In this document: positions 4,935-26,893 of the stretch, piece by piece
Layout: each line of letters starts with the position of its first letter
How positions within the stretch are numbered: position 1 is the stretch's first letter
Origin: Ruminococcus sp.
GTDB lineage: Bacteria; Bacillota; Clostridia; Oscillospirales; Ruminococcaceae
Assembly: GCA_015066875.1 (NCBI GenBank)
Contig: SVNM01000022.1
Span: 1-32,578 of the forward strand
Length of the DNA: 32,578 nucleotides
Reading direction: 5' to 3'
Translations under genes and position numbers: made by a program
The notes under the pieces: generated by a model
What the model saw: only the letters and a program-made list of their open reading frames with translations
Told to the model about the DNA's origin: nothing
The model's database searches: none

Positions 4935-5133
4935 TGTTGAGTGCGGTGTATATCGCACTGACTGCAGCAGATATGCGTTGAAGCGGAAGGTTGCCGGCGG
5001 TGTGCCGGGTAATTTCCGTGGAGTATGTCCGATTTAAAACCGGGCGATTGGGATATTGAACACAGTTTGTGGTTTAGTTTTGCAGCTTGCGTATGCAGTA
5101 ACTATGTCCATTTTGTGCTTTTATGATTCTAAG
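4935..5133 (+). promoter_or_regulatory. Structured 5' leader of the ribosomal protein operon
   Basis: There is no convincing gene in this stretch. Hairpin A pairs AGTGCG (4940-4945) with CGCACT (4954-4959) around an 8-nt loop. Hairpin B has an outer stem CGGAA/TTCCG (4984-4988, 5014-5018) and an inner stem CCGGC/GCCGG (4994-4998, 5004-5008). Further weak pairing is possible to 5100. Together with the terminator that follows, it looks like a regulatory leader, perhaps one that binds a ribosomal protein. I cannot match it to a named leader family. Confidence 0.6.
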
Positions 5134-24867: not shown

Positions 24868-24909
24868 AACCTCTGCATAGAATGTAACAATTCGATGTGG
24901 AGGTTTTTT
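24868..24909 (+). terminator. Terminator whose 3' arm holds the next gene's Shine-Dalgarno
   Basis: AACCTCTGCAT (24868-24878) pairs with ATGTGGAGGTT (24895-24905), 11 pairs with two G-U. A six-T run (24904-24909) ends exactly at the ATG of the next gene. The GGAGG that serves that gene (24899-24903) is inside the 3' arm, so folding would end transcription or hide the ribosome binding site. Confidence 0.75.
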
Positions 24910-25311
24910 ATGCATAAACGACGAGCAAGCCTGTGGACAAACATTATTTTTTCGGTGCTGATATCCGCAGTGGTCGGAGTCTGCGTGTCGCTGGCATTTA
25001 CTTTTTTGTCGGCGCTTTTTGTGATGTTTTTGATGGACAGTCTGCAGTATATCTCTTTTTTCAGCTATACTGCGTTAATTCTCGGAGGAGCGTCTGCGGG
25101 ATTTATATGCGGAAAAAGGCGCAGACGAAAGGGTCTTAAGGAGGGCGTTTTGTGCGGAGCTGTTGTTTATCTATTGATTTTTATTGGCGGAGTTATATTA
25201 AGCTCCACAGTGTTTTCCTTTAAAAAGCTTTTGCTTCTTGCTGTCACTGGAGCAATGGGCGGAGTTATGGGAGTAAACTCTAAACGTCCCGACAATATGA
25301 CATACAACTGA
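24910..25311 (+). CDS. TIGR04086-type membrane protein
   Basis: A 133-residue protein with four predicted membrane helices (about 12-34, 40-62, 77-94 and 97-118), basic loop GKRRRRKGLKEG, and a pattern like the TIGR04086 family seen next to yajC in Clostridia. No enzymatic motif. ATG 24910 has GGAGG six bases upstream, inside the preceding hairpin. The stop TGA (25309-25311) touches the nested palindrome. The function of the family is not known. Confidence 0.75.
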   Translation: MHKRRASLWTNIIFSVLISAVVGVCVSLAFTFLSALFVMFLMDSLQYISFFSYTALILGGASAGFICGKRRRRKGLKEGVLCGAVVYLLIFIGGVILSSTVFSFKKLLLLAVTGAMGGVMGVNSKRPDNMTYN

Positions 25312-25453
25312 CGATGTCTGCCTGTACAAAGCTCCGCTTTGTACAACTCTGCGGACAATCGGGACAAATCCCGAAAAAAAAGGAGCGTTAAGCTCCTTTT
25401 TTGTCCGCAGAGTGACAGTGAAAGCATACGCTTTCACTGTCGGCAGACATCGT
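25311..25453. repeat. 143-bp nested inverted-repeat element between convergent genes
   Basis: Outer 12-bp arms: ACGATGTCTGCC (25311-25322) and GGCAGACATCGT (25442-25453). Inside them are three domains. A 10-bp hairpin (TGTACAAAGC, loop TCC, 25323-25345) comes first. A central 13-bp stem (25346-25358 with 25401-25413) encloses a TCGGGA-CAAA-TCCCGA hairpin and a GGAGC terminator hairpin. A perfect 12-bp hairpin (GACAGTGAAAGC, loop ATAC, 25414-25441) comes last. All arms are perfect matches and almost every base is paired, in a cloverleaf arrangement. It fills the gap between the TIGR04086-type gene and htrA. Confidence 0.9.
25374..25402. terminator. Bidirectional terminator inside the nested element
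   Basis: GGAGC (25382-25386) pairs with GCTCC (25392-25396) around GTTAA. It is flanked by eight A on the left and six T on the right, so it works as a terminator on both strands. It serves both the plus-strand membrane-protein gene and the minus-strand htrA operon. Confidence 0.8.
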
Positions 25454-25462
25454 ATTCATTTA

Positions 25463-26878
25463 TCAGTAATCGCCTGAGGTATCCTCTAAGAGTTTAAACT
25501 CAATATCAAAATATTCAGGCTCAGACTCGCCTTCATCAAAGCGGGCACAGGTAGCAGGAACGTAGTCGCCTGCGCCGTACATACTGCTGATAGTATCATA
25601 GAACTCGTCATATGTGCTGACAGACTTTCCGTTAATGGCAGTAATAAAGTCACCCGGCTCAAGCTCGGTGTTGATAATATCGCTGTCCTCGGAAATTTCA
25701 GCGATATAAATTCCCTTGAAATCGTCGGGAAGCTCAAAGCCGATAGTTTCTTCAATGGAAGCCTTTTTGTAGTCGTTCTCCATATCAATCAGCTGAATAC
25801 CTATTCTGAATCTTCCGCCCACATAGCCCTGATTGATAAGCTCCTCAATAATAGGAACAGCGTCGTTAATGGTGATAGCAAAGCCCAGGCCCTCATAGCT
25901 TGAGCTTACATATTTTGAAGAGGTAATACCGATAACCTGACCGTACATATTGACAAGAGCTCCGCCTGAATTTCCGGGACTGATATCAGCATTTGTCTGG
26001 ATACAGTTCATTTCAAAGCCTGTAGAGTCAGACTTGATTTTACGGTTGACCGCTGAAACGATACCGTCAGTAACAGAACCTGAAAGTCCGGCGGGATTTC
26101 CAATAGCCATAACCTGTTCGCCGGGCACGATTTCATCTGAATCGCCAAGAACAGCGGGTTTAAGGTCAGGAGCGTCGATTTTCAGAATAGCGATATCGGT
26201 TTTAGAGTCTCTTCCGATGATTTTAGCGTCATACACCTTGTCATCTGAGGTAGTAACAGTATGATATCCGTCAGCATCAAGCACATGAGTATTTGTAACG
26301 ATGTAACCGTCCTCAGAGATAATAACGCCTGAGCCTGAACCTACCATAGTAGTATGACGGCTGTCGTCGTAAGCGTAAATCTCAACTATAGAGGGACGCA
26401 CAACAGAAGCGATACCCTCAGTTGTATATTTCCCCGTATCAGGGTCTTTATAGGAATTATCCTCTTCATCAGATTCGGGCTTTGATTCGCGATAGAGAAC
26501 AACATTTTCTGATTTTTTTATACCTGAAAAAACCTTTTCGCTGTTTGAAACATCGTTGACGATTGCAAAAACAGAGAGTCCCAGTGCGGTAAGAAAAATC
26601 AGCACAAGAAGCAGAATAATCACACGCTCATTGCGGTTAATGCGTTTCTTTTCACGAGCCACAGCCTGAGTCTTTTCCTCTTCCTGTTTCTGTTTATCAA
26701 GCTCTTCAAAGCCTATAGGCTGAAACATAAACTCATCATACTGAACATTTGCAGAGCTGTTTTCCTTATTTTCAGCATTTTCAGCGATGTTATCACTGCT
26801 CTGAACAGAATCTGAATCAGAAGTGTTGTTATCCGGGTTTTGGTTGCTTACGGTAAATAATTCATCTCGGTTGTCCAT
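25463..26878 (-). CDS. htrA: HtrA/DegP-type serine protease with PDZ domain
   Basis: A membrane-anchored envelope protease that degrades misfolded secreted proteins. The 471-residue protein has an acidic cytoplasmic N-terminus (1-80) and one membrane helix (86-107). The trypsin-like domain follows, with catalytic His198 (TNTHVLD), Asp228 (KTDIAILKI) and Ser304 (PGNSGGALVN). A C-terminal PDZ domain (about 370-450) has GIYIAEI and LEPGDFITAINGK. ATG 26878 was chosen because AAAGGA lies six bases upstream; the TTG at 26893 precedes it. It is 15 bases after the kinase gene, so the two-component system probably shares its transcript. The nested repeat ends the transcript. Confidence 0.95.
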   Translation of the reverse strand: MDNRDELFTVSNQNPDNNTSDSDSVQSSDNIAENAENKENSSANVQYDEFMFQPIGFEELDKQKQEEEKTQAVAREKKRINRNERVIILLLVLIFLTALGLSVFAIVNDVSNSEKVFSGIKKSENVVLYRESKPESDEEDNSYKDPDTGKYTTEGIASVVRPSIVEIYAYDDSRHTTMVGSGSGVIISEDGYIVTNTHVLDADGYHTVTTSDDKVYDAKIIGRDSKTDIAILKIDAPDLKPAVLGDSDEIVPGEQVMAIGNPAGLSGSVTDGIVSAVNRKIKSDSTGFEMNCIQTNADISPGNSGGALVNMYGQVIGITSSKYVSSSYEGLGFAITINDAVPIIEELINQGYVGGRFRIGIQLIDMENDYKKASIEETIGFELPDDFKGIYIAEISEDSDIINTELEPGDFITAINGKSVSTYDEFYDTISSMYGAGDYVPATCARFDEGESEPEYFDIEFKLLEDTSGDY

Positions 26879-26893
26879 AAATAGTCCTTTCAA

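Follow-up and report, generated by a model that had tools for sequence, protein, structure and literature searches.

A nested cloverleaf palindrome around a putative two-way intrinsic terminator between convergent genes of a Ruminococcus genome

Anatomy of the convergent junction

The window, that is, the whole stretch of 32,578 nucleotides that we analysed, is contig C85 of a Ruminococcus sp. genome of 2.25 Mb, which is divided into 107 contigs and 88% complete. Two open reading frames converge within it, one encoding a DUF3792 membrane protein (24895..25311, plus strand; PF12670, E 7.7e-13) and the other an HtrA/DegP-type serine protease (25463..26893, minus strand; PF13365, E 1.6e-34; PDZ domain PF00595, E 1.6e-5). 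Between them we find a palindrome of 143 bp (25311..25453), delimited by folds and inverted-repeat analysis, which takes the form of a nested cloverleaf with 62 Watson-Crick pairs and no mismatches, so that 124 of its 143 bases are paired when each base is used once; this count takes the central stem as 11 bp, two T of its right arm being also part of the terminator. The outer arms are formed by box A, ACGATGTCTGCC, at 25311..25322 on the plus strand and at 25442..25453 on the minus strand (12 bp, perfect in the inverted-repeat listing), and the first base of the left copy is the last base, A, of the DUF3792 stop codon TGA (25309-25311), on which the first gene therefore ends. Inside the outer arms stand two side hairpins, the left one with a 10-bp stem and the 3-nt loop TCC (25323..25345; fold and hairpin scan), the right one with a 12-bp stem and the 4-nt loop ATAC (25414..25441; inverted-repeat listing). 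The central stem is made by box B, ACTCTGCGGACAA, at 25346..25358 on the plus strand and 25401..25413 on the minus strand (13 bp, perfect in the same listing), and it encloses an inner hairpin of 6 bp, TCGGGA-CAAA-TCCCGA, which has no counterpart on the other side (25359..25374; folds), together with an A-run, the hairpin GGAGC-GTTAA-GCTCC and a T-run, which make up a putative two-way intrinsic terminator (25374..25402; sequence and a fold of the hairpin at 25376-25402). A spacer of 9 nt (25454..25462) separates the element from the protease stop codon (25463-25465). A preliminary description of this DNA had placed all of these arms and stems correctly, as well as the start of the element on a stop codon; its statement that the element ends ten bases before the other stop codon has to be corrected to nine.

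Chance can be excluded for the cloverleaf, because shuffled DNA or RNA never matches its folding energy. As DNA, positions 25300-25465 fold at -66.2 kcal/mol, where shuffles give -17.4 ± 3.1 (z = -15.5; 0/200 as good), and as RNA the 143 nt fold at -97.1 (z = -17.7; 0/200 as good). Among 12,494 windows of 150 nt drawn from 315,140 bases of the same genome, none folds more stably than the one over the cloverleaf (-90.5 kcal/mol, against a mean of -32.6 and an sd of 7.5), with a window over the SRP RNA gene reaching only -67.4 in the same scan, and the lowest value among 12,049 windows from the loci of relatives is -81.8. Perfect hairpins with a stem of at least 9 bp and a loop of 3-8 nt occur 113 times in 714,623 bases of the genome (the window and 40 further stretches) vs 18 times in one Markov shuffle, and the only cluster of at least three of them, less than 60 nt apart, is the cloverleaf. 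No cluster of at least three perfect hairpins with a stem of at least 9 was found in the sequence of relatives (369,268 + 193,131 + 100,000 + 60,000 + 14,401 + 20,000 bases, and 14,070 junction bases). Lowering the stem cut-off to 7 raises the count to 12 clusters in the genome's own sample and 16 in that of the relatives, and of the other 11 in the own genome ten resemble copies of two kinds of repeat, with the stems judged by eye. Additionally, the 8-mers of the element that were listed all occur in the genome sample at no more than 1.4 times the expected number.

The core, AAAAAAAAGGAGC-GTTAA-GCTCCTTTTTT, has the textbook anatomy of an intrinsic terminator on either strand, being laid out as A8-GGAGC-GTTAA-GCTCC-T6 between two convergent stop codons, with positions 25375-25402 folding at -14.2 kcal/mol. 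A scan with a simple terminator consensus did not list the core, and on inspection both strands carry a GC-rich hairpin followed by a T-run at convergent gene ends, as bidirectional terminators do. Judged by this canonical anatomy, the core should halt RNA polymerase arriving from either side. Like a bidirectional intrinsic (Rho-independent) terminator, the element thus has a GC hairpin with an A-run before it and a T-run after it on both strands, whereas it differs in adding about 115 bases of perfectly paired, nested arms round a self-sufficient core. Since the core alone would suffice, termination does not explain the arms. At E. coli gene ends, longer inverted repeats are reported to belong mostly to intrinsic terminators (PMC6060812).

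The RNAs that would end at the core are predicted to fold alike. On the DUF3792 side (25309-25402, plus strand; -43.4 kcal/mol, z = -8.4), the predicted structure has UGUCUGC paired with GCGGACA (7 bp, one G-U) below the 10-bp hairpin, then the inner hairpin and then the terminator, and on the protease side (25374-25465, minus strand; -41.0 kcal/mol, z = -8.7) the same design recurs, except that the 12-bp hairpin takes the place of the 10-bp one and the inner hairpin is missing. The predicted order on each mRNA is ACGAUGUCUGCC, hairpin, ACUCUGCGGACAA, terminator hairpin. The block can be read as two inverted copies of one tail module, which have the boxes (12 and 13 nt) in common and differ in the sequence of the apical hairpin, and, as the block is mirrored, the two mRNAs should carry the same folded tail at their ends. 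The identity of the boxes in the two halves follows from the palindrome itself, which does not imply that box should pair with box; this pairing is equalled by 191 of 20,000 shuffles and by 94 of 20,000 pairs of pieces taken at random from the window, a modest signal in a post hoc test.

Copy number and comparison with known repeats

Next, we investigated whether the element recurs elsewhere. A DNA search of the whole genome returned nothing besides the element and the match of its right hairpin to its own complement, and in 100 genomes of the genus, this one included, two others match briefly, over 28 and 39 bases. A covariance model of the whole cloverleaf (R1), built from the single element sequence given twice, found only the element's own locus in its genome at E 1, on both strands. 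The model scores the element's own minus strand, in which the side hairpins are swapped, at 66.9 bits and so has some reach; it could miss elements of wholly different sequence, and its filters are stricter when more than 40 genomes are searched. Under these terms it gave one other match in 125 genomes of the genus at E 0.1 (G073; 24.2 bits, E 0.09), which we rejected as a second copy, the sequence there being plain and terminator-like, and no further locus at E 0.01 among 347 genomes drawn from the family, this one and some others of the genus included. A model of the half-module, applied to the 125 genus genomes, recovered its two copies in the element and five other matches (E 0.018-0.94), all of them within open frames of at least 229 codons and none convincing as a copy. 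Phage and plasmid records contain no match to the element at 1e-5, and two exact 20-mers of it are absent from viral contigs. Looking through the 714,623 bases for places where the two boxes lie close together, with at most three mismatches allowed per box, we found the element on both strands and seven loose pairs. Rfam 15 gives no match above the gathering score at the element, the only match in the window being an S10-Clostridia ribosomal protein leader at 4970-5047 (45.7 bits). The search of related genomes with the whole element and a covariance model, proposed in the preliminary description as a check, places the design at this locus only in what was searched, which favours a local, elaborate terminator.

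The same description had suggested a structured RNA, a DNA cruciform or a mobile element of REP or MITE type, with a local terminator as its fallback; to a REP or MITE, copy number, REP tags and target-site duplication lend no support. REPs lying between convergent genes are mostly within 20 bp of both 3' ends in the two genomes studied (PMC3733652), and the REP and REPIN palindromes described there, tagged with GTAG or CGTC, resemble the element in often adjoining both convergent stop codons and in forming larger hairpins from inverted pairs. Unlike them, the element is untagged, much larger and equipped with a terminator, and it lacks their high copy number, being single in the DNA and covariance searches of its own genome. 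The motifs GTAG, CTAC, CGTC and GACG are all absent from 25311-25453, the base preceding the element making a GACG across the left border. Three Y1-type (RAYT-like) transposase frames are found in the genome (L209:1321-1839; L210:1432-2028, minus strand; L211:1324-1863); the hairpins inside the L209 and L211 frames are of a GTAGGG type unrelated to the element, and we rejected a REP/RAYT link.

Nesting and terminator-like sequence are both reported for MITE-type repeats (PMC10969869), and MITEs together with the streptococcal BOX, RUP and SPRITE repeats treated there are similar to the element in being non-coding, forming stem-loops and in some cases nesting, with SPRITE including terminator-like sequence. 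The 12-bp perfect outer arms are terminal inverted repeats of the kind expected of a MITE, whereas the element differs from all of these in its single copy (neither the DNA search nor the covariance model found the several copies per genome typical of MITEs), in terminal repeats not common to other elements, and in the lack of a target-site duplication, of which, as the preliminary description had already remarked, none is visible by eye in the flanks. For comparison, a motif with dozens of copies per genome has been read as a likely selfish element (PMC11109978). We found no report of such a cloverleaf, or of palindromes in terminator loops, in Ruminococcus in the literature searched.

The junction and other palindromes across the genus

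We then examined the same gene pair across the genus. Of the 125 genomes of the genus, 122 have a match to DUF3792, and all 125, this genome included, have one to the protease query, for which paralogues are possible. Apart from the genome studied, the two matches converge on a single contig in 102 congeners, lie on separate contigs in 14 and are not convergent in five. Taken from match coordinates, the distance between the match ends in the 102 congeners is 33 nt or less in 74, 34-60 in seven, 61-120 in three, 121-400 in 15 and more in three, compared with 157 at the element's locus. Among the four nearest relatives by protease identity (67-69%; G110, G069, G030 and G118), the DUF3792 and protease stop codons overlap in TTAA in G110 and G069, whose loci (L137 and L138, respectively) show no visible hairpin between the convergent genes, and the gaps in G030 and G118 are 23 and 45 nt with weak folds only. 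In G030 we also observe, between yajC and DUF3792, a long imperfect palindrome of approximately 170 nt (L030 from about 1950), which lies upstream of DUF3792, the locus being read on the opposite strand. Given the near-absent spacer in most relatives, a block of about 150 bp was most likely gained in the lineage of this genome, loss in all the others being a less likely alternative. The scant spacer in most relatives, with the overlapping stop codons in two of the four nearest, favours a gained or inserted block, and both of the refuting conditions set out in the preliminary description apply together.

We fetched and read 20 of the 102 junctions in congeners, with a preference for wide gaps: 7 of 15 with gaps of 121-400 nt, all 10 of 34-120, 3 of 74 of at most 33 and none of the three above 400. 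A simple hairpin was read in 7 of the 10 with gaps of 34-120 nt, and large palindromes or hairpin arrays in 6 of the 7 with gaps of 121-400 nt, namely G089 (274 nt, -150 kcal/mol), G009 (276 nt, -193), G017 (391 nt, -216), G065, G059 and G074, the G050 junction in that class having neither. The palindrome at the G089 junction belongs to a family spread across the genus (G089:C38:6738-6962, E 5.9e-23), and the one in G009 resembles that family by eye.

This family consists of giant cloverleaf palindromes of about 300 bp with the core GCCCCATAGGG and the ends TAA[CG]GG..CC[CG]TTA, for which we found no published name, and it is possibly a more interesting object than the cloverleaf in the window. 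It occupies at least 40 places in the genome studied (40 of 105 candidates scored; for example L144:11395-11690) and, with E 0.001 as the cut-off, is found in 75 of the 125 genomes of the genus. Its copies have a cloverleaf layout whose outermost arms vary from copy to copy, because each pair of them is a host terminator split in two. The left and right flanks of one copy pair with each other at a mean of -17.5 kcal/mol vs -7.6 (sd 3.5) between copies (n = 18), in 13 of the 18 no right flank pairs better with the left one than that of the copy itself, the right flank is T-rich in 17, and one copy, L173, pairs poorly. These 18 were kept from 96 core matches, after dropping 42 without the right core (reverse-strand matches among them), 6 that were too short, 20 without a recognised boundary and 10 duplicates; copies in other species give the same picture by eye. 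The pairing of the flanks leads us to conclude that terminators in the genus are landing sites for these palindromes. Within one arm of several of the giant palindromes (L140, L145, L155 and L089 at about 5401), we also observe a hairpin compound, CTCCCCAC..GTGGGGAG with TGTCAGC..GCTGACA, which is found in a Ruminococcus flavefaciens record as well and looks as if one palindrome had been inserted in another.

The giant palindromes resemble the element in their cloverleaf layout, in their tie to terminators and in the copy at the same junction in G089. They differ from it in that the family has many copies and the element is single, and in that their copies sit inside terminator loops whereas the element's own terminator is innermost and intact. 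Furthermore, the outer arms of the element precede ATTCATTTA and not a T-run, unlike the flanks of an insertion into a terminator loop, and DNA searches of the genome found no sequence shared between the element and the core or arms of the family.

Origin and role of the element

On this evidence we consider it fairly probable that the element is a lineage-specific, over-built palindromic two-way intrinsic terminator, and it is most likely not a member of a repeat family. Counting against this reading are that the arms exceed what termination needs, that the consensus scan passed over the core, that the pairing of the boxes is a modest signal, and that G118 and G030 have short gaps in place of overlapping stop codons. 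The working core would be the central A-tract, GC hairpin and T-tract. In each predicted tail the 7-bp pairing of the boxes would cap the 3' end and may protect it from 3' exonucleases. The arms may have arisen at a terminator hot spot, by the insertion of palindromes or by inverted copying, in one step or several. Their perfection may reflect youth, or else template switching between the arms, a process reported to homogenise the arms of inverted repeats (PMC8604942). For the full cloverleaf to form, transcription would have to read through the block, or the DNA would have to be single-stranded or extruded.

A different account would make the element a member of a mobile palindromic family, be it a MITE, a REP/REPIN or a relative of the giant palindromes, that is single here by chance. 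The lineage-specific gain, the resemblance in layout to the GCCCCATAGGG family, the presence of a member of that family at the same junction in G089 and the three Y1-type transposase genes are in keeping with it, but there is one copy in 2.25 Mb, in the 125 genomes of the genus and the 347 of the family no match but the element itself reaches E 0.01, phage and plasmid records are without a match, there is neither a target duplication nor a GTAG or CGTC tag on either strand, and the giant palindromes share no sequence with it that a DNA search detects, and we regard this origin as unlikely, if worth serious consideration. The folded tails allow a more speculative proposal, which we hold only tentatively and think rather doubtful, that the block is a two-faced 3'-end device giving both mRNAs the same tail for their joint stabilisation or targeting, with arms built stepwise by the capture of palindromes at a terminator hot spot.

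It seems quite improbable that the element is instead a structured regulatory RNA, either a 3' UTR module common to both genes or an RNA made by read-through, which a protein or another RNA would bind and of which the terminator would be no more than the 3' end: both half-transcripts are predicted to fold alike despite different apical hairpins, but the likeness of the boxes comes with the palindrome, the half-module has no convincing copy in 125 genus genomes, and the sole Rfam match in the window is the S10 leader elsewhere. That congeners keep the same gene pair without the element speaks against a DNA cruciform with a chromosomal role such as protein docking, supercoil relief or fork pausing; such a role, suggested by the nearly complete predicted folding of the single-stranded DNA and by a junction that would leave no base unpaired, is in our estimation very unlikely. 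An assembly artefact, finally, is scarcely credible. The draft is fragmented, as its 107 contigs and 88% completeness indicate, and is presumably metagenome-assembled, judging from the named Ruminococcus records of its protease relatives, most of which are, but the flanking genes are open and full-length, the gene order on both sides is that of the genus, and a chimaera would yield one long inverted copy rather than nested hairpins that differ.

As an over-built two-way terminator, the element indicates how far a simple terminator of this kind can be elaborated in one lineage, at a site where relatives are mostly near spacer-free, and it does so in a genus that also hosts a widespread palindromic family placing itself within terminator loops. 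Should the two-faced device prove true, the locus would be a snapshot of bacterial terminators recruiting and nesting palindromes. Overall, the conserved junction offers a natural series, from overlapping stop codons through plain hairpins and hairpin arrays to giant palindromes, in which the growth of intergenic palindromes becomes testable.
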